The notes below the pieces were generated by a model, which worked only from the letters and a program-made list of their open reading frames with translations, was not told the origin of the DNA and did not search any database. From positions 1 to 32,337 of the forward strand of contig JAAYJT010000078.1 of assembly GCA_012522795.1 (NCBI GenBank): a stretch of 32,337 nt of DNA, given 5' to 3'. Both the position numbers and the translations under genes were made by a program. Shown piece by piece: positions 3,310 to 29,996 of the stretch (its first letter is position 1; each line of letters opens with the position of its first letter). Source of the DNA: Bacteroidales bacterium (GTDB lineage: Bacteria; Bacteroidota; Bacteroidia; Bacteroidales; JAAYJT01).

Positions 3310-3978
3310 ATGAGGTGGATTTATAAAATATTAAGTATTGTACTGCTGGTTTACGCTGTTGTAGCTGGGCTTACAATTAAAATACCCTTCGATTTGCCTG
3401 TTATTCATGAGAGTATTCGTAATCTGTTTTATCATGTGAGTATGTGGTTTACCATGATCATAATCTTCCTGATATCCTTTGTTTACAGTTTAAGATATTT
3501 AAAGGGTTTTAACCTTGAATATGATCGCATAGCTGTAACTGCAGCTCAGGTAGGACTGGTTTTTGGAATGCTTGGGATTTTTACCGGAATGTTATGGGCA
3601 AATGAAACCTGGGGAGCTCCATGGGTTCGTGATCCTAAACTAAATGGCGCAGCAATGAGCCTTCTGGTATATTTTGCATACCTGATATTAAGATCATCAA
3701 TAACTGATGAAGAAAAGAGGGCGAGAATATCAGCGGTTTATAATATTTTTGCTTTCATTCTGATGATAATTTTTCTTGGCATTTTACCAAGACTATGGGG
3801 AGATTCGCTGCATCCGGGACAGGGTGGAGGACCTATGACTGTGGCTAAATTGGATTCAACCCTGCGTATCATATTTTATCCTTCAATTATTGGATGGATA
3901 TTACTTGCAGTATGGATACTTGAACTTAAGATTAGGGTTAAACGTTTAAATGAAAGATTAAACTCCGATGAGATATGA
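3310..3978 (+). CDS. ccmC: Heme exporter protein C (CcmC/CcsA family)
   Basis: This 222-residue protein has six predicted membrane helices. It carries a diverged tryptophan-rich heme-handling motif at residues 101-108 (WGAPWVRD, for the family's WGxxWxWD). Flanking histidines that fit the external heme ligands are H42 (FYHVSMW) and H168 (DSLHPGQGG). CcmC presents heme to CcmE on the periplasmic face of the inner membrane. The stop codon overlaps the start of ccmD (ATGA), which indicates translational coupling. The protein is a little shorter than E. coli CcmC, as is usual outside Proteobacteria. Confidence 0.92.
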   Translation: MRWIYKILSIVLLVYAVVAGLTIKIPFDLPVIHESIRNLFYHVSMWFTMIIIFLISFVYSLRYLKGFNLEYDRIAVTAAQVGLVFGMLGIFTGMLWANETWGAPWVRDPKLNGAAMSLLVYFAYLILRSSITDEEKRARISAVYNIFAFILMIIFLGILPRLWGDSLHPGQGGGPMTVAKLDSTLRIIFYPSIIGWILLAVWILELKIRVKRLNERLNSDEI

Positions 3979-4142
3979 TTGACGAAAATAAAATGTATGT
4001 TGTAGTCGGTGTATTGCTGATCATCCTTCTAGGTTTGTTTTTATATCTTATAACTATTGATATAAAACTTCGGAAGATTGAAAAAAAGTATAATAGGGAA
4101 AATAAGCCTAAAACCAGATCAACAGTAGTAACCGGGAAATAA
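3975..4142 (+). CDS. ccmD: Small membrane protein CcmD
   Basis: A 55-residue frame starts at the ATG overlapping the ccmC stop (ATGA at 3975-3978) and ends with TAA at 4140-4142. It has a short N-terminus (MIDENKMY), one hydrophobic helix (VVVGVLLIILLGLFLYLIT), and then a basic charged tail (IDIKLRKIEKKYNR). This is the classic CcmD design: one transmembrane segment and a Lys/Arg/Glu-rich cytoplasmic tail. CcmD stabilises the CcmABC-CcmE complex. Its position between ccmC and ccmE supports the call. Sequence conservation in this family is low, so layout and position are the main evidence. Confidence 0.85.
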   Translation: MIDENKMYVVVGVLLIILLGLFLYLITIDIKLRKIEKKYNRENKPKTRSTVVTGK

Positions 4143-4151
4143 TAAAGGTTT

Positions 4152-4574
4152 ATGAAAACCAGACATATTATCTTAATTCTTGTAGTTGCTGTAGTAACAG
4201 GTATTATAATAACAACATTTTCGGGTTCGGGAGCATATAGCCATTTTGAAGAGGCATTTAACCATCCCGGACGCGATTTTCATATAATCGGGAAGCTTAA
4301 TACCCAAAAAGCATTGGAATACGATAGTCATATTGATCACAATTATTTTGCTTTTTACATGTTCGATCAGCACGGTAAAGAATCAAAAGTGGTTTATCGG
4401 GGAGCTAAACCGCAGGATTTTGAGAAATCGGAACAGGTTGTGATAATTGGCAGCGCTGAGGATGGAGTATTCAATGCCAAACAGTTATTGTTGAAATGTC
4501 CTTCAAAATATAATGAAGAAGGACTGCCACAGGAATACGACGATACAAAATTTGATAAAGTATCGCAGGATTGA
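4152..4574 (+). CDS. ccmE: Heme chaperone CcmE, cysteine variant
   Basis: This 140-residue protein has an N-terminal membrane anchor (IILILVVAVVTGIIITTF) followed by a periplasmic OB-fold domain of CcmE type (residues ~40-125; KVVYRGAKPQDF, VVIIGSAEDGVFNAKQLLLK). CcmE takes heme from CcmC and passes it to apocytochrome c. In the classical protein heme binds covalently to His in an HxxxY motif. Here the motif is C116-PSK-Y120 (CxxxY), the variant known from Desulfovibrio, archaea and other lineages. It begins 9 bases after ccmD and is the last gene of the cluster. No ccmF, ccmG or ccmH follows. Confidence 0.92.
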   Translation: MKTRHIILILVVAVVTGIIITTFSGSGAYSHFEEAFNHPGRDFHIIGKLNTQKALEYDSHIDHNYFAFYMFDQHGKESKVVYRGAKPQDFEKSEQVVIIGSAEDGVFNAKQLLLKCPSKYNEEGLPQEYDDTKFDKVSQD

Positions 4575-6212: not shown

Positions 6213-7529
6213 TTACTTATTGATATCGAATTCGTCCTGAAGTGTTTTAACACAATCAAGTTTTTCCCATGCGAAAAACTCAACTGTTTTCTTGAATTTC
6301 CGGCAATGCGCACCATTTCCGGTAGATTCACCACTGTCAGGGTCATAACATACTTCAATCTCGGCGGTATAAGGATCGCGCCCAAAATGCCCGTAAGTTG
6401 CCGTAGGCAGATAAATGGGATTTTTAAGCCCGAATCTTTTGACAATAGCGTACGGACGCAAATCAAATATTCCTTTGATGATTTCACCAATAGCCCCGTC
6501 AGTAAGTATTTTGCCATTGATATCCTTAACTTTTGCTGTGCCGTATGTATTAACATACAGTCCAACAGGTTCGGCAACTCCGATTGCATAAGCCACCTGA
6601 ACAAGAACTTCATCGGCAATTCCTGCTGCAACCATGTTTTTGGCAATATGCCTGGTTGCATAAGCAGCCGAGCGGTCAACCTTTGATGAATCTTTACCGC
6701 TGAAAGCTCCTCCTCCGTGAGCACCACGGCCTCCGTAAGTGTCAACAATGATCTTACGACCTGTTAATCCGGTATCACCATGAGGTCCCCCGATTACAAA
6801 TTTTCCTGTGGGATTAATTAGTAAAGTGAAATTATGATCGAAAAGCTTTTTTACTTTTTCTGGAAGAGTACTGCTTTGCTTAACCCTTGGAATAAGTATT
6901 TCTTTTACATCTTTTTCAATTATTCTGCGCATTTCCTGATCGCTGGCAAAAGGATCATGCTGGGTTGAAATCACTATAGAATCAATACGCCGGGCAATAT
7001 TTTGGTCATCGTATTCAATAGTAACCATTGATTTTGAATCGGGTCGCAGATACAGCATTTCTTTACCTTCATGTCTGATGGCTGCAAGCTGCTGAAGCAG
7101 AACATGCGATAATTCAAGAGCCATAGGCATATAATTCTCCATTTCGTTTGTAGCATAGCCAAACATCATTCCCTGATCGCCCGCACCCTGTTCTTCAGAA
7201 GTTTTTCGTTCAACTCCCATGGTAATATCAGGACTTTGTTCATGAATGGTGGAGATCACACCGCATGAATTGTATTCAAACCCATATTCTCCTTTGGTAT
7301 AACCAATCCTCTTAATTGTATTTCTTGCAATGTTCTGTATATCAATATAGCTTCGGGTCTTAACCTCACCGCTGCAAACCACCAGTCCTGTAGTAACCAA
7401 TGTTTCGCAGGCGACTTTACTTTCAGGGTCATGCCGCAGAAAGTCATCAAGCAGTGCATCAGAGATCTGATCGGCAATTTTATCGGGATGTCCTTCAGAA
7501 ACAGATTCAGAAGTAAACAGATAGTTCAT
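6213..7529 (-). CDS. metK: S-adenosylmethionine synthetase
   Basis: This 438-residue enzyme makes S-adenosylmethionine from methionine and ATP in the cytoplasm. The three-part MetK fold is evident: [20 protein letters not shown] at the N-terminus (ATP/methionine site), [12 protein letters not shown] near residue 115, and the glycine-rich phosphate loop [24 protein letters not shown] near residues 270-290. It is longer than E. coli MetK (384 residues) because of insertions and an extended C-terminus (residues after ~395), as in many Bacteroidota MetK proteins. It has its own promoter-like element upstream and converges on rocD. A 193-residue open frame inside it on the same strand is only a shadow. 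Confidence 0.97.
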
Positions 7530-7566: not shown

Positions 7567-7617
7567 GTTCTTTTTTGGCTTTCTGTCTCTTATAGGGTTT
7601 GATTTAATACCTTTAAT

Positions 7618-7679
7618 ACCGATTGGAAAAATATAACAGACCAATTATACCGGATGGCAAAATATAACAGACCAATTAT
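7618..7679. repeat. Two tandem 31-bp repeats between DUF819 gene and metK
   Basis: Bases 7618-7648 and 7649-7679 are adjacent copies of a 31-bp unit, 28 of 31 identical. The last 20 bases (AAATATAACAGACCAATTAT) are perfectly conserved. They lie in the 311-base gap 7530-7840 upstream of metK and beyond the end of the DUF819 gene. The remainder of the gap shows only the metK promoter element. Role unknown: operator pair or simple duplication. Confidence 0.8.
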
Positions 7680-18980: not shown

Positions 18981-20183
18981 ATGTTAACCAAGAATAACCT
19001 GATTGTAATTTTGTATTCATTGCCGGTTTATCAGCAATTATTTTTTACAGTTCAGTTAATATCATTTAAAAAGTCAAACCCGTCAAGAAAGTTTCTTGGA
19101 TTGTTATTGCTGGCTATGACACTGTTTTTAGTTATAAATGCAGTGTCAAATCTTGGATACCAGCCTTATGTTATTCAATTTCTTGTAACTCCACTCATTT
19201 TAATGATATTGCCCTTTGAGTTTTTGTATTTACTTTCATTGTTTAATAAAAATGATCAGATCAAGACCTGGAGTGCCTTAATATTATTTATTCCTGCTTT
19301 CGTAATGCTTATTGCTGAATTATCAGGTTTTGGCTTTTCTGAAACCATTAAACATTCAACTTATTTAGGGAATGTTAGTAATTCTTTTAATGAACTTGAA
19401 GCAGGTGGCAATCCTGTTTCAGATACTTTACGAATTACTTTCATGATAATTATAATCACACAAATTGCTTTATCAGCTCTCAGAATAACAGATCTGGTCA
19501 AGTCTGAACAAGAAAAAGTGAATTCAGATCCCCAATTTTTACCTCACATAAGTTTTTTATGGATAAAAATTATTTCCGGTAATTTGATTATTTTTTTAAT
19601 AGTCAGTTCAATACAGATTTTTGCCTTGGGGTCAAACAATTTTTATTTTATAATATTCACTAATATTTTAATGCTCATTAGTGGAGGTCTTGTTGGATAT
19701 TATGGTATGAAACAGGATGTATTATTGCAGGAAATATCCGGTGTTGGAGTATTAAGGAATTTTAGTTTAAGGAATGAAGAATCAGGTCAGGCTGAAAATG
19801 AATCAAACATAGTAGATGATGAAGCTGCCGGAATCATAAATAAAATACAAGAGATAATGGAAGAGCAAAAGCCATATCTTTCAAAAAAATATACTATAAA
19901 TGATCTGAGCATTGAGTCAGGTATTAAGCAACATCGCCTAACAACCGTTATTAACGATACAATGGGTACTAACTTCAATGGCTTGGTAAATAATTACCGG
20001 ATAAAAGATGCTATATCCATGTTAGAAGACAATAAACAGAATTACACCATTGATGCTATTGCTGATATTACTGGCTTTAGTTCACGATCAACGTTTTATG
20101 CATGTTTTAAAAAGATAACCGGATTAACTCCCAAAGATTATATGTTAAGCGCTAAGAATAATATTCATGAAACAGAAACGTGA
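18981..20183 (+). CDS. Membrane-embedded AraC-type regulator (7 TM helices + HTH)
   Basis: 400 residues. The N-terminal ~245 residues hold seven hydrophobic segments at about 5-28, 38-60, 65-90, 98-121, 149-172, 193-215 and 220-243. A linker leads to an AraC-type DNA-binding domain at about 290-390, with YTINDLSIESGIKQHRLTTVI as the first helix-turn-helix and YTIDAIADITGFSSRSTFYA then FKKITGLTPKDYM as the second. It should sense a signal at the inner membrane and bind DNA directly. It is convergent with the CTERM-gene array and shares a bidirectional terminator with its first gene. Decayed copies of its 3' end recur between array genes, tying its history to the array. I infer that it controls the array through the palindromes. 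Confidence 0.88.
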   Translation: MLTKNNLIVILYSLPVYQQLFFTVQLISFKKSNPSRKFLGLLLLAMTLFLVINAVSNLGYQPYVIQFLVTPLILMILPFEFLYLLSLFNKNDQIKTWSALILFIPAFVMLIAELSGFGFSETIKHSTYLGNVSNSFNELEAGGNPVSDTLRITFMIIIITQIALSALRITDLVKSEQEKVNSDPQFLPHISFLWIKIISGNLIIFLIVSSIQIFALGSNNFYFIIFTNILMLISGGLVGYYGMKQDVLLQEISGVGVLRNFSLRNEESGQAENESNIVDDEAAGIINKIQEIMEEQKPYLSKKYTINDLSIESGIKQHRLTTVINDTMGTNFNGLVNNYRIKDAISMLEDNKQNYTIDAIADITGFSSRSTFYACFKKITGLTPKDYMLSAKNNIHETET

Positions 20184-20228
20184 ATGCCTGTATATTTCTG
20201 TGCTTCCTCTAATAGTATGAGAAAACAA

Positions 20229-20263
20229 AAAAGGGGCTGCCAACTTGTGAGGCAGCCCCTTTT
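20229..20263. terminator. Bidirectional terminator between regulator and cassette A
   Basis: A perfect 13-bp stem, AAAAGGGGCTGCC with GGCAGCCCCTTTT, around a 9-base loop. The A-tract and T-tract make it work on both strands. It is the first member of a terminator family (core GGCTG...CAGCC) found after every array gene. Confidence 0.92.
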
Positions 20264-20285: not shown

Positions 20286-21134
20286 TTAAAATATTCTCCT
20301 AAAGCGAATAACAACAAAACTTAACATAAGAGCTATACCCACATAAAGTGCCCAATGTGAAAGGGGAACTGGAGTAGGTGGATTAATTGTAGGATAATCA
20401 CATGAATATTGAAGATTGTTTTGAAACATTATTCCGGCTCCTTGATCTTCTACATACCCCCATTCATATGTACAGGTGGTTGCTGTTACAGTTCCATTGC
20501 CAAATGTATATTGAATAGTAGTTGGTTTACCACTGCTTTGTTCGGCAGTAATAATAAGTGTACCAGGATACAGATTTGTAAAATATCCATGGCTGGCATA
20601 ATTGCCATAAAAAGGACTTGGAACTCCGGCTACAATTGGATGTGAAGCATCAATAACTATATTATAGTCTTCAATGTGTACTACGGTACTAACACCACCA
20701 GGCAGGTCCACGGGAACAAGTGGTGAGTTCCATCCATAAGTTGCTGCATGAACCTGCAATCTTCCACCATTCTGTACAAAGTTAACAAACTTAGAGAAAT
20801 TTGCCGAAAATGCAGTGTGAAAAGCTGCGTTTTGATCTGATTCTACAATAATTACATCAAAATCATCAAAATTCATTGAAGGGAATTCTGATGAATTAGC
20901 AGTTGTAACATTATGGCCTTGAGCTTGTAAAAAAGAGACAGTGACATCTATACCCCAGGGAAAATTGTTTCTAAGGACCAAAAAATTACATTCACCGTTC
21001 CTGGTAGGATTGGCAAAAACTTCCGATTTAAGATAAGTTGGTGTGTAGTCACTAGGTGCAACATTTGTGTTTTGTTGAGCAAATACGCTTCCCATCAACA
21101 AGAATGCGATTAAAAGAAGATTCAAATTTTTCAT
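20286..21134 (-). CDS. Array gene A: secreted glutamine-amidotransferase-like fold protein with CTERM tail
   Basis: 282 residues: signal peptide (MKNLNLLLIAFLLMGSVFAQ), a variable body, a Pro-rich linker (NPPTPVP) and the array tail (PLSHWA, hydrophobic helix, RFRRIF). The body resembles class-I glutamine amidotransferase / ThuA-type folds: FLQAQGHNVTTANSSEFP, FDDFDVIIVESDQN, FVQNGGRLQVHAATYGW, and ASHPIVAGVPSPF near residue 175. No catalytic Cys-His pair was recognised, so binding rather than catalysis is likely. The protein is expected to be exported and held by its C-terminal helix until processing. It is the first cassette next to the regulator, and most similar in kind to gene F. Function unknown. 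Confidence 0.85.
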   Translation of the reverse strand: MKNLNLLLIAFLLMGSVFAQQNTNVAPSDYTPTYLKSEVFANPTRNGECNFLVLRNNFPWGIDVTVSFLQAQGHNVTTANSSEFPSMNFDDFDVIIVESDQNAAFHTAFSANFSKFVNFVQNGGRLQVHAATYGWNSPLVPVDLPGGVSTVVHIEDYNIVIDASHPIVAGVPSPFYGNYASHGYFTNLYPGTLIITAEQSSGKPTTIQYTFGNGTVTATTCTYEWGYVEDQGAGIMFQNNLQYSCDYPTINPPTPVPLSHWALYVGIALMLSFVVIRFRRIF

Positions 21135-21162: not shown

Positions 21163-21314
21163 CAAAAGTATAATAACAAAAAATAAATATAAATATTTAG
21201 ATGTATAAATATGTCCGGATTTTGCAATTCAGGACATATTTATTTATAGATTGCTGATAAACAGCACTATGATTGAGGTTGGTTTTTGTCCTGAATTAAT
21301 AATTCAGGACAAAA
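21163..21314 (-). promoter_or_regulatory. Promoter and twin palindromes of gene A
   Basis: The -7 element TACTTTTG is at 21163-21170 (minus strand). Palindrome 1 at 21207-21241 has 16-base arms, 14 of 16 paired (AAATATGTCC...GGACATATTT). Palindrome 2 at 21284-21314 is perfect: TTTTGTCCTGAATT, three bases, AATTCAGGACAAAA. Centres are 75 bp apart, and palindrome 1 is centred 54 bp upstream of the -7 element. No good -33 element is present, as expected for activator dependence. Likely binding sites of a dimeric regulator. Confidence 0.8.
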
Positions 21315-21510
21315 TACTTGGTTCATGTATTTTGTTAAGAAGATAAAAGTATTTATTAACTGAAAGGAATAAATATGTAAAACGGTATTTGTAGCTTATG
21401 CAAAAGATTAAGTTAAATCGGCTTAAGCTTATGATTGGTTAGGCAACAATACGTAGTAATCATGATTAACTGGACATGTATATTTGTTTCATTGGCTAGA
21501 TGATAATTGT

Positions 21511-21623
21511 CGGATTTAGTTAACGCTCAGCTATCTCTGCATGTTTTAAAAATGATTACCGGATTGACTCCTAAAGATTATATGTTAAGAGCTAAGAATA
21601 ATATTGAGGAAACTGAAATATAA
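21511..21623 (+). pseudogene. Decayed 3' end of the AraC regulator, copy 1
   Basis: Matches the last ~110 bases of the regulator gene (about 20073-20183), from GGATTTAGTT(A)ACG through GCATGTTTTAAAAA to the stop. In frame the end reads ITGLTPKDYMLRAKNNIEETEI. An inserted T (AAAAATGATTACC for AAAAAGATAACC) and a TAA upstream break the frame. It keeps the regulator's position relative to the following terminator. Confidence 0.85.
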
Positions 21624-21651
21624 GTTACTGTGCTCTTTTATAAGAAACAAC

Positions 21652-21678
21652 AAAGGCTGTCCTTTTGAGACAGCCTTT
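21652..21678 (-). terminator. Terminator of gene B
   Basis: AAAGGCTGTC and GACAGCCTTT form a 10-bp perfect stem, the same family as the terminator at 20229-20263. It lies 24 bases beyond the stop of gene B. Confidence 0.8.
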
Positions 21679-21701
21679 CATAGATACTACTTCAACTTAT
21701 C

Positions 21702-23366
21702 TTAAAATATTCTCCTAAAGCGAATAACAACAAAACTTAACATAAAAGCAATACCCACGTAAACTGCCCAGTTTGAGAGGGGTATAGGTTGAATTGATTC
21801 AGACCAGGTAAATGATGCTGTATCGTTGAGTGCACCAACAACGGCCATAATATTATCAGTACCCGGATTTGGACCATCATAACAGAATGTAGCTATTCCG
21901 CTTTCGTTTGTAAATGCAAAGCCGGTGCTCGCACTGTTAGGTCCTGTAATATTAAAGTCAACCCTGACACCAGTCACAGGCTCGCCAAAATTGTTCAGCA
22001 AAGTTGCTTGCCAGCAGCGGGTGGTATTTATCGGTGAACTGCCTGTTTTCGGGCTTATTGTTAGTGAAACTACTGTAGCAACCTCGCCAAATGCCTGTCC
22101 TCCAATATAGGCGTATGAATCAGCTTCAGTATATCCATAAACAAGCAGTCCTATAGGTAAGTTACTTGTAACTGTGTGGATTCCATTGGGAACAGACACT
22201 TGTGCACCAGAATAAGTGGTGCCCGGAATTGCAGTCCAGGAACTTGGGGCTACGCTGGCACCGTCTACCTTTACATTTCCGGTATTTGATGTAGGTGAAG
22301 TAATGTTTAAATAGTTTATTGCTATGTTGCTTGTACCAGCAGAGATTACATAATTGTTTAAAACCTGTTCGTCAGGAGGTATTAAGGAAAAACAAGGGTC
22401 GCCAGTGGTATTATCAGCCGATACTCCTTTACAAAATTGACCAACCAAAATAGGTTTGTTGGCTGTAATTTTATTATAGGATGTACTGGATAAATCTGTT
22501 TGGTAAAACTGACCTGCATTTAAAGTTGCAACAACAGATCCGTTAATACTTACCTCAGTGTTGCTTTGTTGTGCCATTATTCTAAATACATCTCCGGCAG
22601 TTCTTTCTGCTAATGGAACTGTTACAAAGCTCTGACCCCATGTATTTACCGGTGTTAACTGTTGAACTATGTAATCACAAGCAGTTACTCCAACAGGAAT
22701 ATTAGCGCAATTATTTGACCCAAACACGCCTACCGGTTTATCGGACACAACTCTTGATCCGGTGTAATCACTGCCTGAAGCGGTCGTCCTAAGTTGAAAA
22801 ACTTGTCCCGTGTTTAAAACCACATTTCCGGTAACTCCTGCAGACCAGCCGGGGCTTGAGGCTGTTGGAGTAATCGAAACATTGGTGTTGTCTTCTGTAG
22901 CTACGACAGTAAGCTGTATGCCAAGATTGTTATTTTCATATGCCATAACATAATAATCGTTTCCAAGTGCATCAACCGGAAGCCCTAGATAAGCATCTGT
23001 AGAAAAATCTCTTTGGCTCATAACATAAACTGTCACCGGATTATCTGAAGTTACATGTATCCCTTTATTATGTATTGACCCATTTCCTGTAACCTCCACT
23101 GCCATTGGAAGAGTGATTGTTTCCAGAGTGCCGGCTGTAATATTTACAGTTGTTGAAAAAGCAGGGTCTGTTATGTTTATATTAACAACTGAATTATTTT
23201 CTGCTGTGATGTATAATTGCCTTACACCTGTAGCATCATAATTTGCAGGAAATGCAAGCCAGAATTCGGTACCTTGACTGGTTTGTGCTTGCAGGTTCAA
23301 ATTTGCGGAGATTGCCAATATAAATATTAGCACTAGGTTCTTTATTGAGATTAAAGTATTTTTCAT
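21702..23366 (-). CDS. Array gene B: IgGFc-binding-like plus Ig-like domain protein with CTERM tail
   Basis: 554 residues. A signal segment (to ~28) is followed by a long beta-rich region of IgGFc-binding N-terminal type (SQGTEFWLAFPANYD, HVTSDNPVTVYVMSQRDFS, DAYLGLPVDALGNDYYVMAY, VVSDKPVGVFGSNNCANIP; ~30-430). Then an invasin/Big-1-like Ig domain (VSLTISPKTGSSPINTTRCW ... VTGVRVDFNITGPNSAS; ~435-522) and the tail (PIPLSNWAVYVGIAFML then RFRRIF). Such surface domains are linked to adhesion in other bacteria; no ligand can be named here. Gene C ends 57 bases upstream on the same strand, and the repeat promoter lies upstream of C, so C and B are probably one transcript. Confidence 0.87.
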   Translation of the reverse strand: MKNTLISIKNLVLIFILAISANLNLQAQTSQGTEFWLAFPANYDATGVRQLYITAENNSVVNINITDPAFSTTVNITAGTLETITLPMAVEVTGNGSIHNKGIHVTSDNPVTVYVMSQRDFSTDAYLGLPVDALGNDYYVMAYENNNLGIQLTVVATEDNTNVSITPTASSPGWSAGVTGNVVLNTGQVFQLRTTASGSDYTGSRVVSDKPVGVFGSNNCANIPVGVTACDYIVQQLTPVNTWGQSFVTVPLAERTAGDVFRIMAQQSNTEVSINGSVVATLNAGQFYQTDLSSTSYNKITANKPILVGQFCKGVSADNTTGDPCFSLIPPDEQVLNNYVISAGTSNIAINYLNITSPTSNTGNVKVDGASVAPSSWTAIPGTTYSGAQVSVPNGIHTVTSNLPIGLLVYGYTEADSYAYIGGQAFGEVATVVSLTISPKTGSSPINTTRCWQATLLNNFGEPVTGVRVDFNITGPNSASTGFAFTNESGIATFCYDGPNPGTDNIMAVVGALNDTASFTWSESIQPIPLSNWAVYVGIAFMLSFVVIRFRRIF

Positions 23367-23423: not shown

Positions 23424-23840
23424 CTAGTTGGTAATCACCTTAATATTCTTAAACTCAAAACTCGTAATATCAGCTTTGTGCGTAGGAATAATTTTGATAG
23501 CCAGAACTATTAAATCCGAGCTTTCAGCTTCTGAGCAGTCCGATTGAAGTGATGCTCCTGGAGCAACAATATGTTCTTTAAGCCCGTAACGTGCTTCTAC
23601 ATTCATTCCAGAAACATTATCATTTACTACGTCAGTCCAGGTTACTTTAACCCCATAATTGTTTTTGTTAACAATTTTAAGAAATATGGCATCCTGTCCG
23701 TTGCATTCGCCAATTTTGTAATAGAAATCAACATTGCCTGTTGATTTGTTGAGTGTCCAGTCGCTGGCAAAACCATGACTAATGCTACCCATGAAAAGAC
23801 CCACAGATAGCAAAATTGTAAAGAAAATTGATTTTTTCAT
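23424..23840 (-). CDS. Array gene C: small secreted protein without CTERM tail
   Basis: 138 residues with a signal peptide (MKKSIFFTILLSVGLFMGSI...GFASDW). The mature part has about 110 residues and looks like one beta-sandwich (VDFYYKIGECNGQDAIFLKI, YGVKVTWTDVVND, APGASLQSDCSEAES, DLIVLAIKIIP), with two cysteines. I do not recognise the family. It lacks the VPLSNWA tail carried by every other array gene. It sits between the standard cassette promoter and gene B and so takes the first position of a two-gene unit. It could be a soluble partner of the B protein; that is inference from position. Confidence 0.8.
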   Translation of the reverse strand: MKKSIFFTILLSVGLFMGSISHGFASDWTLNKSTGNVDFYYKIGECNGQDAIFLKIVNKNNYGVKVTWTDVVNDNVSGMNVEARYGLKEHIVAPGASLQSDCSEAESSDLIVLAIKIIPTHKADITSFEFKNIKVITN

Positions 23841-23868: not shown

Positions 23869-24021
23869 CAAAAGTATAATAACAAAAACTACATATAGAT
23901 ATTTAGATGTGTAAATATGTCTGGATTTTGCAATTCAGGACATATTTATTTATAGATTGCTGATAAACAGCACTATGATTGAGGTTGATTTTTTGTCCTG
24001 AATTAATAATTCAGGACAAAA
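23869..24021 (-). promoter_or_regulatory. Promoter and twin palindromes of genes C-B
   Basis: The -7 TACTTTTG is at 23869-23876. Palindrome 1 is at 23913-23947 (GTCTGG replaces GTCCGG in one arm). Palindrome 2 at 23991-24021 has perfect 14-base arms around AAT. The distance from -7 to palindrome 1 centre is again 54 bp, and the AATTCAGGAC half-sites are 76 bp apart. Confidence 0.8.
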
Positions 24022-24217
24022 TACCTGGTTCTTGTATTTTGTTAAGAAGATAAAAGTATTTATTAGCTGAATGGAATAAATATGTAAAGTGGTATTTGTA
24101 GCTTATACAATAGATTAAGTTAAATCGGTTTAAGCTTATGATTGGTTAGGCAACATTATGTAATAACCATTATTAACAGGGCATACATACCAATTTCATT
24201 GACCAGATGATAATTGT

Positions 24218-24330
24218 CGGATTTAGTTCACACTCAGCTTTCTATGCTTATTTAAAAATGGTTACCGGATTAAGCTCCTAATTTTTATATGTTAAGAGCT
24301 AAGAATAGTATTGAGGAAACTGAAATGTAA
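24218..24330 (+). pseudogene. Decayed 3' end of the AraC regulator, copy 2
   Basis: Aligned with copy 1 and the regulator end: GGATTTAGTTCACACTCAGC, then TTACCGGATTAAGCTCCTAA, then TATATGTTAAGAGCTAAGAA. The PKD codons have become TAATTTT, bringing an in-frame stop. Not functional. Confidence 0.8.
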
Positions 24331-24355
24331 GTTACTGTACTCTTTTATTAGAAAC

Positions 24356-24388
24356 AACAAAGGCTGCCCTTTTGAGACAGCCTTTGTT
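24356..24388 (-). terminator. Terminator of gene D
   Basis: AACAAAGGCTG and CAGCCTTTGTT form an 11-bp stem of the array terminator family, 22 bases beyond the stop of gene D. Confidence 0.8.
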
Positions 24389-24409: not shown

Positions 24410-25768
24410 TTAAAATATCCTTCTGAAACGGATAACTACAAAACTTAACATAAGAGCTATACCTACATAAAGTGCCCAGTTTGAAAGGGGCACCGGAGGC
24501 CCTCCCAGTATCCATTCTAATGTAATTATATTTGAGCACTGATTGACTCCCTGACTGTTTTGGAAGCAGGCCTGGATCTCATCAACACCTGGTCCACCTA
24601 TCCCTAAGTAGGAAAAGAATGCATCTCCTGCAGCATTTGTTGTTCCTGTACCTGCAACTCCGGAGTTAGGCCCTGATAATACATTAAAACTTACAGTCTT
24701 ACCCGCAACCGGATTTCCATTATTGTCTTGAATATGAGCTTTTACGGTATGGCTTGAGCCAACGTTTTCTTGTACCGTTGTTTGAGTTAATAAGATACCT
24801 TCACCAATGATAGCAGCACCTGAAATTTGGAAGTATGACAAAAAGATATTGTCATCGTTTGAAGGATTTATTGTACTAATAAGGATATTTGTTGTTGTAT
24901 TATCTATAAATGGCAGCAAACTATACAGTTCATCGTCATAGCGAATATCACAGCTTGAACTACTGTAAGGATCAGGAGGATTTGTATTAAGATCTCCAAT
25001 ACCACCTACCGTGATTAATGCACCATTAGCTAATACACCATCGTCATAACCATTTGCTGAACTTGTAAGCCGCTGACCGTTTACATCAATTATTGATATT
25101 TGCCCCAAACAGGGTCCATTTGCTGAGAATGATATACCCAAACCCATATCAAGAACTGAGCTCGGATCGTTTGGGTCAATTGGCTGCCCTAAGGCAAGAG
25201 AAAAGTTATCACCTGTTGTGCTTAAAGCACCAAACATTATAACAATGGTTTTTTCATATGTTAGTGGATCAGCAAAAACTACAAGAAGTGCAGTACCATC
25301 AATGTTATTAGAATTACATTCACCAACTGTCAGTGTATTTATCCCGGCTGGTGCAAGGTCAATTATTCCTGCAACTAAAGAAGTAATATCAGCATAATGA
25401 TTATAACTGGATATTCCACTGGTTGTGCTGAAATCCCAATTAACCGGTGTACCATTTACGGTTATGCATCCGTTAGGAATAGAATAAGATGTAAATCCTG
25501 TTGAGGCTCCCATTATAATTGCTTTTACTACTGTAGATCCTGAATTTGGTTTATCTACTCTAATAGGATAACTTGAACTAAGGCTTCCCGCGCCATCGGC
25601 CGAGATAGTGTATTTACCTGTTATAGAATATATCTGAGACAGACCATTAGCCAGTACCACACTATTGTTGTTTTTGGGGTCAGGATTGGTACCATAAGTG
25701 TTTGACTGGCTGTAGGAGGTAGCTATAAAAGCCACCATCGCAATTGATAAAAATAGAACTTTTTTCAT
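24410..25768 (-). CDS. Array gene D: DUF3344-like plus Ig-like domain protein with CTERM tail
   Basis: 452 residues: signal peptide (MKKVLFLSIAMVAFIATSYS), then a beta-rich body (VVKAIIMGASTGFTSYSIPN, NHYADITSLVAGI, TALLVVFADPLTYEKTIVIM; ~20-320) that resembles the DUF3344 family of secreted proteins. A Big-1-like Ig domain follows (VQENVGSSHTVKAHIQDNNG, TVSFNVLSGPNSGVAGTGTT; ~325-420), then the tail (VPLSNWA, helix, RFRRIF). The Ig domain is related to the one in gene B (compare DFNITGPNSAS and SFNVLSGPNSG). Expected to be exported and membrane-held. No ligand or activity can be assigned. Confidence 0.83.
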   Translation of the reverse strand: MKKVLFLSIAMVAFIATSYSQSNTYGTNPDPKNNNSVVLANGLSQIYSITGKYTISADGAGSLSSSYPIRVDKPNSGSTVVKAIIMGASTGFTSYSIPNGCITVNGTPVNWDFSTTSGISSYNHYADITSLVAGIIDLAPAGINTLTVGECNSNNIDGTALLVVFADPLTYEKTIVIMFGALSTTGDNFSLALGQPIDPNDPSSVLDMGLGISFSANGPCLGQISIIDVNGQRLTSSANGYDDGVLANGALITVGGIGDLNTNPPDPYSSSSCDIRYDDELYSLLPFIDNTTTNILISTINPSNDDNIFLSYFQISGAAIIGEGILLTQTTVQENVGSSHTVKAHIQDNNGNPVAGKTVSFNVLSGPNSGVAGTGTTNAAGDAFFSYLGIGGPGVDEIQACFQNSQGVNQCSNIITLEWILGGPPVPLSNWALYVGIALMLSFVVIRFRRIF

Positions 25769-25796: not shown

Positions 25797-25949
25797 CAAA
25801 AGTATAATAACAAAAACTACATATAGATATTTAGATGTGTAAATATGTCCGGATTTTGCAATTCAGGACATATTTATTTCTAGATTGCTGATAAACAGCA
25901 CTATGATTGAGGTTGATTTTTTGTCCTGAATTAGTAATTCAGGACAAAA
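25797..25949 (-). promoter_or_regulatory. Promoter and twin palindromes of gene D
   Basis: -7 TACTTTTG at 25797-25804. Palindrome 1 at 25841-25875 is identical in core to that of gene A. Palindrome 2 at 25919-25949 keeps perfect 14-base arms around AGT. Spacing to the -7 element (54 bp) and between half-sites (76 bp) is conserved. Confidence 0.8.
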
Positions 25950-26145
25950 TACCTGGTTCTTGTATTTTGTTAAGAAGATAAAAGTATTTATTAGCTGAAT
26001 GGAATAAATATGTAAAGTGGTATTTGCAGCTTATGCAATAGATTAAGTTAAATCGGCTTAAGCTTATGAATGGTTATAAAACATTACGTAATAATCATGA
26101 TTAACAAGGCATGTATACCAATTTCATTTTCCAGACTATAATTGC

Positions 26146-26256
26146 GGGATTTAATTTACGCTCAGCTTTCTATGCTTATTTAAAAATGATTACCGGATTA
26201 AGCTCCTAATTTTTATATGTTAAGCGCTAAGAATAATATTCAGGAAACTTAAATGT
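26146..26256 (+). pseudogene. Decayed 3' end of the AraC regulator, copy 3
   Basis: GGGATTTAATTTACGCTCAGC, TTACCGGATTAAGCTCCTAA and TATATGTTAAGCGCTAAGAA align with the regulator end. AGCGCTAAGAATAATATTCA is identical to the functional gene. Stops and shifts elsewhere make it non-coding. Confidence 0.8.
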
Positions 26257-26283
26257 GAATACCTGTATATTTCTATAAGAAAC

Positions 26284-26318
26284 AACAAAGGGCTGTCTTT
26301 TTGAGACAGCCCTTTGTT
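26284..26318 (-). terminator. Terminator of gene E
   Basis: AACAAAGGGCTGTC and GACAGCCCTTTGTT form a perfect 14-bp stem with a 7-base loop, the longest of the array's terminators. Confidence 0.85.
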
Positions 26319-26339: not shown

Positions 26340-27272
26340 TTAAAATATCCTTCTGAAGCGGATAACAATAAAACTTAACATAAGAGCTATACCAACGTAA
26401 AGTGCCCAGTTTGAGAGGGGAACTTCACTTGGCGGTTGAGGGATTACTGGATCTTCTACACATGCATCAAATGCAAAACGCTTGTTTGTAAGCCAGCCAA
26501 CCTGATTATCAACACTGTTAACTCCAATAAAATCTGTTCCCGGCCATCTAAAACGACCTACAAGTGCAAAATCTACTCCATTACCTTTATTAATACCAAC
26601 AGTTGCAGCTGATCCTCCGAATCCATTGACTCCACCTGAAGCGCTACCTGTAGTCCACTCCATGGATTCATATGCAAATGCAACGTTATGACCTAATCCA
26701 ATAAGAGGATCATTACCATCAGTTATGATAAGTTGAAATGTATTACGTTTATCACCTTGAATATTATAATAACCAACTTTATCCCAAATAACTACCAGGC
26801 GGTTTGGATTGGTAGTCATTTTGTAATGTACACTACCAAAACCACCACGGGTATCTACGTCAGCCCAGAAGGGAGCTACCATAGCATATCCGTTTATAGG
26901 GAAGCCTGTTGGAGTATAAGTATAATAAGCCTGATCAAATGAAACGTTTCCATTATTGTTTATATAGAACTTAGTATAGTCCGTTTCGTATAAACAAAAA
27001 GTAAAAGGGAGAGTCAACTGTTGTGTATAACCGTCATCATTTGGTTGCATAGCTAAAATAAACGAGTCATCAAGCTGTACATAAAATCCAGTATTACGTA
27101 TAGATTCATCTGGAAGGATGGGTGTGATAGGACCATTGTAATGAACCTGTGCAGGTTGCTCAATCAATCCCTTTTCTTTTAAAGTCTGATAATCCGGCGA
27201 ATATGGATTTTGTCCATACGAAACGCCAACAAACATAATTGCTACGATAATTACATTGAATACTTTTTTCAT
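26340..27272 (-). CDS. Array gene E: nidogen-like domain protein with CTERM tail
   Basis: 310 residues. A signal peptide (MKKVFNVIIVAIMFVGVSYG) is followed by a NIDO-like domain: TLPFTFCLYETDYTKFYINN, GNVSFDQAYYTYTPTGFP, YAMVAPFWADVDTRGGFGSV, LVVIWDKVGYYN, FQLIITDGND, GGSAATVGINKGNGVDFAL (~75-240). Then a linker (CVEDPVIPQPPSEVP) and the tail with one change in the helix (SFIVIRFRRIF). NIDO domains occur in extracellular-matrix and bacterial surface proteins. Its upstream region differs from the other cassettes: no decayed regulator and only half-palindromes, so its promoter is the most diverged in the array. Confidence 0.87.
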   Translation of the reverse strand: MKKVFNVIIVAIMFVGVSYGQNPYSPDYQTLKEKGLIEQPAQVHYNGPITPILPDESIRNTGFYVQLDDSFILAMQPNDDGYTQQLTLPFTFCLYETDYTKFYINNNGNVSFDQAYYTYTPTGFPINGYAMVAPFWADVDTRGGFGSVHYKMTTNPNRLVVIWDKVGYYNIQGDKRNTFQLIITDGNDPLIGLGHNVAFAYESMEWTTGSASGGVNGFGGSAATVGINKGNGVDFALVGRFRWPGTDFIGVNSVDNQVGWLTNKRFAFDACVEDPVIPQPPSEVPLSNWALYVGIALMLSFIVIRFRRIF

Positions 27273-27303
27273 AATAAATAATTTTAGTTAATAAACAATT
27301 CCG

Positions 27304-27460
27304 CTAAATTAAAAACTGCGCGAAGTTAAGTCTATTCTTAAGTGCTGTCAAATTTTAAATGTATGAATTTAAAAATTCCGGACATATGAGTTTTTAAGTA
27401 GCACATTATCAGTATTGTAGAAAGTGCTGGCGCTTTGTTGTTTTTGTAAATTCCAGACAT
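27304..27460 (-). promoter_or_regulatory. Diverged upstream region of gene E with two half-sites
   Basis: The 395-base gap 27273-27667 does not align with the repeat copies beyond its edges. A weak -7-like TAATTTAG is at 27304-27311. Two half-sites, ATTCCGGACAT (from 27375) and ATTCCAGACAT (from 27450), sit exactly 75 bp apart, the spacing of the full palindromes elsewhere. The other arms are lost. No regulator remnant is visible. Confidence 0.55.
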
Positions 27461-27612
27461 TATTTTATAGTGATAAACTGTAAAGTTGTTGAATCAATCA
27501 TAAAAAAAAAAGTATTTTTACTACTGCCGTAACTATATTGAATTATAAGTTTTAACAGGAATAATGCAATTTTTATAACATAATTGTATGTTGGTATTAT
27601 TTTCATTTATAC

Positions 27613-27645
27613 AAAAAAGGCTGCCTTTTAGAGACAGCCCTTTTT
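27613..27645 (-). terminator. Terminator of gene F
   Basis: AAAAAGGCTG pairs with CAGCCCTTTTT with one bulged C; same family as the others, 22 bases beyond the stop of gene F. Confidence 0.75.
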
Positions 27646-27667: not shown

Positions 27668-28489
27668 TTAAAAAATTCTCCTAAAGCGAATAACAACAAA
27701 TGTTAACATAAGAGCTATACCTACATAAAGTGCCCAGTTTGAGAGGGGAACTGGAGTAGGAGGTATTGGGGGAGGGGCAACAGCGGTAAAGAGATTTTCA
27801 AATAATTGCTGTCGGTCCTGAGCCAGAGGTGTATCAGTGAGATAACCTATTATTATAGCTTTCCCATTGTTACTACGAATTATTGCACCATTTCCATTGG
27901 GGAAAGTAGCTAAGGTTTCAGCATCACCGGTTGCATTTACCCCTGTACTGAATACATTCCATCCCGGGTTAGTCAAAGGCATTGGATTACTTACATTGTA
28001 TTCTATGGATGGATCCAGATGCATTGGCGTTTGATTGTATACACCAGTATATTCAGCATTAAAAAACATAGCAAAATCATTGTCCATCCTCCAGTCATTA
28101 AAAACCAGAGCTCCGCCATTTGCAATATAATTTGCAAAAGCTGTAAGCAAACCAGGCTTCCACGCCTCCCATTGATAATTTTGATTAAAGCCAACGGCTA
28201 AACCAAAATTGCCGGTATTAAGTTTATTGGTAAAATCGTACCAGTCTGTTGCAACAGTAACTGTGTAACCAAGATGAACCAGTGCTTCAGGTATTTTCCC
28301 ATCAGAATGCTCTAAATCAATATAAAGAAGTGCATCTGCAGCACCTCGTGAAGATCCAATAACTTGCCCGTAATACTTTGCAAAGGTATTAGTTGCTCCT
28401 TCAGGGGCATTGTTTCCTTCTGCAAATAATGAGATTGTTGAAATCATGCAGAACACTGCAAGTGAGAATTTTAATAATTTTGTTTTCAT
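27668..28489 (-). CDS. Array gene F: secreted glutamine-amidotransferase-like fold protein with CTERM tail
   Basis: 273 residues from the ATG at 28487-28489, chosen because it starts the signal peptide (MKTKLLKFSLAVFCMISTIS). The frame opens eight codons earlier (MFNKILFI), but those codons correspond to the 5' leader of the other cassettes. The body looks like an amidotransferase/ThuA-type fold: GRAADALLYIDLE-like start, VHLGYTVTVATDWYDF, NTGNFGLAVGF, FANYIANGGALVFNDWRMD, and GKAIIIGYLTD near residue 215. The tail follows a Pro-rich linker (PPPIPPTPVP), with one change in the helix (MLTFVV). Related in plan to gene A, but the two bodies are far apart in sequence. No active-site residues recognised. 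Confidence 0.84.
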   Translation of the reverse strand: MKTKLLKFSLAVFCMISTISLFAEGNNAPEGATNTFAKYYGQVIGSSRGAADALLYIDLEHSDGKIPEALVHLGYTVTVATDWYDFTNKLNTGNFGLAVGFNQNYQWEAWKPGLLTAFANYIANGGALVFNDWRMDNDFAMFFNAEYTGVYNQTPMHLDPSIEYNVSNPMPLTNPGWNVFSTGVNATGDAETLATFPNGNGAIIRSNNGKAIIIGYLTDTPLAQDRQQLFENLFTAVAPPPIPPTPVPLSNWALYVGIALMLTFVVIRFRRIF

Positions 28490-28517: not shown

Positions 28518-28660
28518 CAAAGATATGATTAACAAACTAAAATATGAGGTATAAACATGTTCGAAATTGTGAAATCCGGACATATTTGTTTCTAAATCGC
28601 TGATAAACAGCAGTATAGTGTGGATTATATTTTATTTTGAATTAATAATTCAGGACAAAA
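28518..28660 (-). promoter_or_regulatory. Promoter and twin palindromes of gene F
   Basis: -7 TATCTTTG at 28518-28525. Palindrome 1 at 28553-28587 is degraded on one side (CATGTTCGAAATT against AAATCCGGACATATTT). Palindrome 2 at 28630-28660 keeps AATTCAGGACAAAA, but the other arm is TTTTATTTTGAATT. Palindrome 1 is centred 45 bp from the -7 element instead of 54. Confidence 0.7.
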
Positions 28661-28855
28661 TACTTGGTTCATGTATTTTGTTAAGAAGATAAAAGTATTT
28701 ATTAACTGACTGGATTAAATATGTAAAGCGATATTTGCAGCTTATGCAATAGATTAAGTTAAATCGGCTTAAGCTTATGATTGGTTAGGAAACATTACAT
28801 AATAGCCAAGATTAACAGGGCAGGCATACCAATTTCATTCACCAGATGATAATTG

Positions 28856-28970
28856 CGGAATTTAGTTCACACTCAGCTTTCTATGCTTGTTTTAAAAATT
28901 ATTACCGGATTAAACTCCAGTAGATTATATGTTAAGAGTTAAGAATAATATTCATGAAGCAGAAACGTGA
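28856..28970 (+). pseudogene. Decayed 3' end of the AraC regulator, copy 4
   Basis: The closest remnant to the functional gene at its 3' end: AATAATATTCATGAAGCAGAAACGTGA against AATAATATTCATGAAACAGAAACGTGA, followed by the same post-stop bases (ATACCTGTA for ATGCCTGTA). PKD has become AGTAGAT, with a frame change. Confidence 0.82.
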
Positions 28971-28999
28971 ATACCTGTACTTTTCTATAAGAAACAAAA

Positions 29000-29026
29000 A
29001 AAGGCTGCCTTTTAGAGACAGCCTTT
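29000..29026 (-). terminator. Terminator of gene G
   Basis: AAAGGCTG and CAGCCTTT form an 8-bp stem of the array terminator family, 23 bases beyond the stop of gene G. Confidence 0.72.
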
Positions 29027-29049: not shown

Positions 29050-29817
29050 TTAAAATATTCTTCTGAAACGGATAACAACAAAACTTAACATAAGAGCTAT
29101 ACCCACATAAAGTGCCCAATTTGAAAGGGGAACAGGTTGTGGAGGTGGTTGTACTCCGGGTGTTTCGCTTCCAAAGGTTATGTCATCAAAACCGATATAA
29201 TTTGCGGAGCCAATGAATTTAACCGACTTTGCAACACCATCAAATGCAACTCCAACAGGTTCCCAAATATTATACTGACCTCCGGGAATAGGTAAAGATC
29301 CCAATGCAGGAAGAATCATGCTTGCTATTAAGTTTCCTGTTGCATTTAAGCCATCATATACTTCAACAGAACCACTGTTATTTATGTTAGAATAATAAAA
29401 CGAAAAACCGGTTTCAAAACCTGCTGCAACGTTCATTATTGCACTGTTTTCATCCAGGAAAAACATGATAGTTGAAGGGGAAGGTTCATTTTGGAAATTT
29501 CCGGTTCCACCAGCATATTCAGCTATAATTGATAATGTTGGACCGGAAAAAGTTATACCATAGTTTGGTCCTGGTCCAAATCCACCACCTGACATACCCC
29601 CATTGTAATAATCAAGAATTGGCTGTGAGTTACCAAGTCCTTCAAAATCCAGTACAATTACATCACGATGTTGCTGGTGGTTTTTGCCCATATCAATAAT
29701 CTGCTCTTTTGTAATTGTTGGCTTAACACTTGGGTTATGCAGTGTTTGTGCCTGAATTGAACCTGCAAGAATAATACAGATACTGACCAATGTTAGAATA
29801 GAAAATAATTTTTTCAT
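29050..29817 (-). CDS. Array gene G: PEP-CTERM-type domain protein with CTERM tail
   Basis: 255 residues from the ATG at 29815-29817, which starts a signal peptide (MKKLFSILTLVSICIILAGS). The frame stays open to 29952, but that would take in promoter and palindrome DNA. The body follows the plan of many PEP-CTERM exoproteins: it opens with VIVLDFEGLGNSQP, has a Gly-rich GGMSGGGFGPGPNYG loop, a jelly-roll-like middle (GFETGFSFYYSNINNSGSVE, VYDGLNATGNLIA) and closes with FIGSANYIGFDDITFGS. The usual linker (PGVQPPPQP) and tail follow. This family likeness is independent support for reading the tail as a sorting signal. It is the last cassette of the array. Confidence 0.85.
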   Translation of the reverse strand: MKKLFSILTLVSICIILAGSIQAQTLHNPSVKPTITKEQIIDMGKNHQQHRDVIVLDFEGLGNSQPILDYYNGGMSGGGFGPGPNYGITFSGPTLSIIAEYAGGTGNFQNEPSPSTIMFFLDENSAIMNVAAGFETGFSFYYSNINNSGSVEVYDGLNATGNLIASMILPALGSLPIPGGQYNIWEPVGVAFDGVAKSVKFIGSANYIGFDDITFGSETPGVQPPPQPVPLSNWALYVGIALMLSFVVIRFRRIF

Positions 29818-29845: not shown

Positions 29846-29996
29846 CAAAGATATAACTGTAAGAAGCCTTGTGCAAATATTATATAAATAGATATGTCCT
29901 GAATTGCAAAATCCGGACATATTTTTTTTATGTTGTTGATACCCAGCACCAATGCTGTGGTTGTATTTTGTCCGGAATTATTAATTCAGGACAAAA
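29846..29996 (-). promoter_or_regulatory. Promoter and twin palindromes of gene G (palindrome 1 inverted)
   Basis: -7 TATCTTTG at 29846-29853. The 31-base palindrome 1 core at 29892-29922 is the exact reverse complement of the core upstream of gene A (21209-21239). Palindrome 2 at 29966-29996 reads TTTTGTCCGGAATT, ATT, AATTCAGGACAAAA. Centre spacing is 74 bp and the -7 distance 54 bp. The remainder of the 430-base gap to 30247 shows no array repeat, only the promoter of the next gene. Confidence 0.78.

Follow-up and report, generated by a model that had tools for sequence, protein, structure and literature searches.

The locus considered here raises the question of how a row of surface-protein genes sharing one C-terminal sorting tail is controlled, and whether the AraC-type regulator encoded opposite them, predicted to be membrane-bound, is responsible. 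Most of what is known about how exosortase-sorted surface proteins are regulated comes from the proteobacterial PEP-CTERM box. In Proteobacteria, PrsK/PrsR, together with an upstream DNA box, regulates PEP-CTERM genes, and site, regulator and tail have matching phylogenetic profiles; further regulators and motifs outside the PrsK/PrsR class were anticipated (PMC1569441). In a PEP-CTERM system, one target is RpoN-dependent (PMC9850573). The window analysed here is a stretch of 32,337 nucleotides from a Bacteroidales bacterium (contig JAAYJT010000078.1). Taken together, the evidence presented below makes it likely that a one-component membrane activator, composed of a seven-transmembrane (7TM) sensor and an AraC domain, controls a regulon of CTERM surface proteins via twin sites.

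The regulator gene (18981-20183, + strand), defined by its open reading frame, Pfam domains and an AlphaFold2 model, encodes a protein of 400 amino acids. Residues 313-388 correspond to an AraC helix-turn-helix in Pfam (PF12833, E 1e-13; PF00165, E 1.5e-10). With 51.8 bits for PF12833 (cut-off 33.6), 41.4 bits for PF00165 (cut-off 26.6), and a C-terminal domain whose PDB matches in a structure search are AraC-type domains, the protein belongs to the AraC/XylS family. The N-terminal 250 residues have no Pfam match. The AlphaFold2 model (9 sequences, pLDDT 76.6, pTM 0.71) contains long helices at residues 4-27, 34-58, 69-87, 97-128, 145-182, 192-214, and 221-252, hence seven predicted transmembrane helices in residues 4-252 (18990-19736, +), then a low-confidence linker (residues 255-275) and a compact AraC-type DNA-binding domain (residues 279-399; 19815-20177, +). 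Loop charges are compatible with an N-out/C-in topology. A known receptor fold was sought for the 7TM part and rejected, the matches being GPCR-like seven-helix bundles that are weak, with TM-scores <0.5. With a transmembrane input and a DNA-binding domain predicted on one chain, the protein qualifies as a membrane-bound one-component regulator. A sequence-only reading of this DNA had described seven hydrophobic segments joined to an AraC helix-turn-helix domain and had called for a topology prediction; because Pfam, AlphaFold2, PDB and loop-charge results agree with it, this description is right, as a prediction. Proteins of this general 7TM-AraC type are common in the order (71/393 genomes at E<=1e-40), so that the novelty is the regulon and not such proteins as such. 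The window's own genome (G000) also encodes a distant 7TM-AraC paralogue (G000:C43 27681-28850, E 1.6e-41 to the family profile).

Facing the regulator on the opposite strand are six genes whose products end in a near-identical C-terminal sorting tail with the consensus [VI]PLSxWA[LV]YVGIA[LF]ML[ST]F[VI]VIRFRRIF. The convergent arrangement already proposed for the regulator and the array holds, since the two 3' ends, at 20183 for the regulator and at 20286 for tail gene 1, face each other. A single hairpin terminator (20229-20263), recognized from its sequence and from counterpart hairpins in the spacers and read from both sides, lies in between. On the - strand then follow tail gene 1 (20286-21134), with a weak ThuA-like body, tail gene 2 (21702-23366), with an IgGFc_binding body, tail gene 3 (24410-25768), which is Big_1-like, tail gene 4 (26340-27272), with a NIDO domain, tail gene 5 (27668-28489), whose closest relative adjoins an exosortase in genome G002, and tail gene 6 (29050-29817). 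The bodies mostly share no relationship, and for each of them a relative with the tail is found in another genome. A small gene without tail (23424-23840, -) lies 5' of tail gene 2 and shares its promoter. Its product is of the secreted type; a similar gene is found 5' of the IgGFc gene in G002, and a gene of G157 (L119 1696-2133) is placed in the same manner. Elsewhere in the window, two adjoining copies of a 31-nt repeat (7609-7670) lie upstream of a gene (6213-7529, -) that resembles S-adenosylmethionine synthetase by sequence.

Four spacers of the array carry, on the + strand, a dead copy of the regulator 3' end and its terminator (21512-21679, 24219-24386, 26147-26314, and 28858-29026). 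These fragments match the regulator at ~20073-20240, that is, its last ~110 coding nucleotides plus the terminator, and contain stops and frameshifts. From the duplicated 3' ends it had been concluded that the cassettes took the regulator along. The four duplications are indeed present, but this conclusion does not stand: the copies are dead fragments seen in the window's genome only, and G002, of the same genus and arranged alike, is devoid of them. The notion of a regulator moving as a passenger on the cassettes was therefore rejected. The simplest reading of the remnants is a tandem duplication with one edge within the regulator 3' end. Because G002 has the regulator, convergent tail genes and sites without any remnant, the association of regulator and tail genes is independent of this duplication. 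Spacers of ~200 nt separate the distal site, described below, from the 3'-end copy in four cassettes (21311-21513, 24018-24220, 25946-26144, and 28657-28855), with 87-91% mutual identity. The idea that they are decayed regulator sequence was discarded, since neither the regulator nor the rest of the window matches them convincingly.

The tails resemble those of the IPTL-CTERM/exosortase H system (TIGR04177), being a short sequence made of a Pro motif, a hydrophobic stretch and a basic end, and the associated exosortase of related genomes is XrtH-like in size and in its best curated neighbours. However, the six isolated tails match neither the IPTL-CTERM nor the PEP-CTERM model at E<=10, and comparison with the curated CTERM models gives only a marginal LPXTG-anchor hit above cut-off. 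In addition, the exosortases encoded beside the regulator in G076 and G084 score 40.5 and 40.3 bits vs. a cut-off of 86 for XrtH (TIGR04177), even though they carry the general exosortase signature TIGR04178. Assignment of the tail to IPTL-CTERM and of the enzyme to XrtH was thus rejected, both being below the curated cut-offs. The window's own genome yielded no XrtH-like exosortase of the kind present in G001, G002, G048, G076, and G084; the sole exosortase found there is XrtX-like (91 bits, XrtX cut-off 170) and belongs to a polysaccharide-type cluster (G000:C98 36696-37283; L022 6697-7284). In every genome inspected, a membrane protein of 171-182 amino acids adjoins the XrtH-like exosortase (L019 11876-12397, L021 7175-7714, L058 6063-6578, L110 4941-5456, and L111 685-1212). 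For those of L019 and L021, NCBIfam gives no match and Pfam none that is significant; the protein is likely an unnamed exosortase partner.

What the tail genes share upstream is a pair of palindromes. Twin palindromes had been seen in the array from the sequence, and they are confirmed upstream of five transcription units, two per promoter and 74-76 bp apart, with one further degenerate set. The proximal and distal putative operators are found at 21212-21236 and 21287-21311 for tail gene 1, at 23918-23942 and 23994-24018 for the unit made of the small gene and tail gene 2, at 25846-25870 and 25922-25946 for tail gene 3, at 28558-28582 and 28633-28657 for tail gene 5, where one half of the distal site is degraded, and at 29895-29919 and 29969-29993 for tail gene 6. 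Tail gene 4 has a degenerate putative operator (27360-27384). With a 23-bp pattern and <=2 mismatches, 8/9 matches in the window's genome are in the array. The general site is a 24/25-bp inverted repeat, TGTMCGRATN6-7ATYCGKACA, whose consensus was derived from G000, G002, G084, L050, and G048. Since the pattern was partly built from these, only the other genomes constitute a blind test, and G076, G179, G270, G157, and G250 are outside the derivation.

Eighteen genomes were scanned with up to two mismatches allowed. At <=1 mismatch, every match lies at a tail gene or a tail relic except one, G048:C214, where the contig stops short of the downstream gene; G250 has a twin pair of sites at two mismatches. 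Specificity was assessed with the 25-bp form in 393 genomes of the order, the reversed pattern serving as control. The six exact matches are all in genomes with tail genes, three being 5' of tail genes, two 5' of tail relics and one at a contig edge. At <=1 mismatch, 20 matches are obtained, 9 in genomes with tails or relics and 11 elsewhere, the latter number being on a par with the 10 given by the reversed pattern. Two lineages show a variant of the same length, TGTCCGTCTGGGTTTTAAACGGACA in G335, present twice, 75 bp apart, and TGTACGTCTAAGCTCTAAACGTACA in G275, and the sites of G203 are weak. Tail genes not linked to the regulator have upstream sites as well, in G048:C15 and in G002:C44, with the exosortase pair coming after the tail gene in the latter. 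A recognizable site is missing at the tail genes of G002:C43 and G002:C64 and at two of the three of G270:C27. In G048:C37 (L064, upstream of the tail gene 3643-4185), half-sites such as ATGTACGAATAAA occur as direct repeats with no inverted repeat. Direct half-site repeats are a known arrangement for AraC regulators.

In the window itself, the palindromes sit in repeated, clearly duplicated spacers, as would be expected if they were structural or recombination elements (terminators or cassette ends) that spread with the array rather than operators. Such an origin is nevertheless very improbable, because in other families the palindromes are also found 5' of single tail genes that are unlinked, because they lie on the upstream side of the transcription start, and because separate hairpin terminators exist. 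Their distance to the promoter, examined further below, also argues against it.

If the palindromes are operators, the next issue is which protein binds them. Orthologues of the regulator were found among 99 relatives in G002 (44% identity), G076, G048, and G084, and in named Bacteroidota MAGs at L046, L047, L049, L050, and L051, the latter on a short contig. A draw of 393 genomes of the order adds G270 (the same place as L046), G275, G179, G335, and G203. Tail genes are convergent to the orthologue in G002, G275, G335, and G203, divergent from it in G084, L050, and G275, and ~8 kb away in G270; at the orthologue of G048, no tail gene is nearby. The XrtH-like exosortase and its 171-182 aa partner adjoin the orthologue or lie within a few kb of it in G076, G179, G335, G203, G275, G084, L047, and L049, being its immediate neighbours in G076, G179, G335, L047, and L049. 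Close homologues that never adjoin tail-bearing genes would have counted against the sequence-only reading; orthologues in other families do adjoin tail genes and/or the exosortase pair, and the link between regulator, twin palindrome and tail gene is conserved across several families of the order.

Co-occurrence points in the same direction. With an orthologue threshold of E<1e-100, which leaves a gap to the next match at 1e-74, 10/393 genomes have the regulator. Tail genes are present in 17/393 genomes and in 9 of these 10 (hypergeometric P 4e-13, a nominal value uncorrected for kinship). The exception, G179, has the orthologue and no tail gene, and keeps twin sites at the place where G076 and G270 have a relic ending in ...EILRFRRIV. 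Three related genomes have well-kept twin sites 5' of such a relic (L076 5768-5976, L123 5007-5233, and L128 5283-5500), with an adjoining pseudouridine synthase gene; the relic may have decayed recently or may encode a short product that is conserved. Conversely, G001 has a tail gene and the exosortase, and the regulator was not found there.

These distributions bear on the idea that a different factor binds the palindromes as operators of the tail regulon, the 7TM-AraC protein being a neighbour or a fellow target. A 24/25-bp inverted repeat would suit other dimeric regulators too, the promoter of the regulator gene itself lacks, in the window, a site at the stringency of the scan, and in G157 and G250, whose assemblies are 76-78% complete, sites are present and the orthologue was not found. 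Yet tail genes go with this particular clade of regulators, in 9/10 genomes, the twin sites of L050 and G084 are flanked by the regulator and a tail gene in divergent orientation, and half-sites also occur as direct repeats. On balance, a different factor appears unlikely, and binding by the 7TM-AraC protein is the preferred reading. An additional hint comes from the protein sequences. In the recognition helix of the second helix-turn-helix, residue 373 is Tyr in six regulators from genomes with sites starting TGTC and Asn in five from genomes with sites starting TGTA, and is the sole cleanly split column; Tyr is also found in two other members of the family. Because the Tyr group is a single clade, this split counts as one event on the tree, and protein-DNA covariation was therefore rejected as proof. 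The split remains suggestive only of a link between the regulator and its site.

How the bound regulator would act can be approached from the promoters. Upstream of tail gene 1, a TAnnTTTG element, the Bacteroidota -7 box, is found (TACTTTTG; 21163-21170, -), with equivalents at the other intact promoters. Where the element is present, the centre of the proximal site lies either 43-44.5 or 53-54.5 bp 5' of this element at most promoters of G000, G002, G335, G270:C26, G157, G084, L050, G250, and G275, a geometry noticed in the very data that define it. The two classes are one helical turn apart, and the exceptions are G048:C15, G270:C27, and the degenerate tail gene 4 in the window. Twin sites are spaced by 74-76 bp in G000, G002, G335, G076, G179, and G270 and by 144-145 bp in G084, L050, and G250. 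The fixed spacing of the proximal site, with one-turn steps, is what would be expected of an activator facing RNA polymerase, while a terminator or a recombination site would need no such phasing. Upstream of the NIDO tail gene (27272-27620), there are degenerate sites only and the TAnnTTTG box is absent, unlike at the neighbouring genes; this promoter is possibly silent or rewired.

The same geometry weighs on the sign of the regulation. Two sites on one promoter, with a conserved spacing of either class, recall looping systems, of which AraC with araI/araO is an example. The regulator could accordingly repress the tail genes, or switch them both ways by looping of distal and proximal sites. 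We hold this to be possible though not probable, since the proximal site is 5' of the promoter element and not over it, at an activator-like spacing.

Activation thus remains the favoured model. The regulator would control the surface-protein genes whose products carry the PxSxWA...RFRR sorting tail, these proteins presumably being processed by the exosortase that is often encoded beside the regulator in other genomes. It would bind, probably as a dimer, TGTMCGRAT-N6/7-ATYCGKACA or a lineage variant of it 5' of each tail gene. With the proximal site on a fixed helical face relative to TAnnTTTG, the bound regulator could touch RNA polymerase. The second site, 75 bp farther 5' (144-145 bp in other lineages), may serve cooperative binding or looping. 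As for the signal, the sequence-only reading supposed that it may come from the envelope. It is also conceivable, if rather doubtful, that what the 7TM part detects is the sorting machinery or its substrates, in the form of either exosortase occupancy or cleaved tails in the membrane.

Compared with known systems, the regulon is analogous to that of PrsK/PrsR, with a dedicated regulator and a conserved site 5' of genes with exosortase-type C-terminal tails, and the proteins are unrelated. PrsK/PrsR is a two-component system with a sigma-54 enhancer-binding regulator, whereas the present system has one 7TM-AraC protein, inverted repeats in pairs and a TAnnTTTG element. Kinase, receiver and AAA domains are absent from the regulator, which therefore falls outside the PrsK/PrsR class. 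The YSIRK-targeted surface antigen transcriptional regulator (TIGR04094) is also of the AraC type and encoded beside genes of sorted surface proteins. However, the present regulator scores 33.8 bits vs. a cut-off of 200, with a match within the DNA-binding domain only, and has a 7TM sensor. ToxR/TcpP-type regulators are single-pass, winged-helix proteins. Like them, the regulator is a membrane one-component protein that would act on its promoters itself, direct binding being predicted here; unlike them, it has seven helices and an AraC domain. A literature search, with subscription papers mostly outside its coverage, found no description of a 7TM-AraC/tail-gene regulon.

Across several families of the order, the regulator is accompanied by the paired sites and the surface proteins. 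We propose this combination as a Bacteroidota counterpart of the proteobacterial system, with a defined putative operator, a defined promoter geometry and a predicted single-protein membrane sensor. The regulon can be listed from DNA alone, and the signal of the regulator becomes a testable question. If the 7TM part did sense sorting, surface-protein output would be tuned to sorting capacity, and the regulator would make up a one-protein feedback circuit for a CTERM sorting system.
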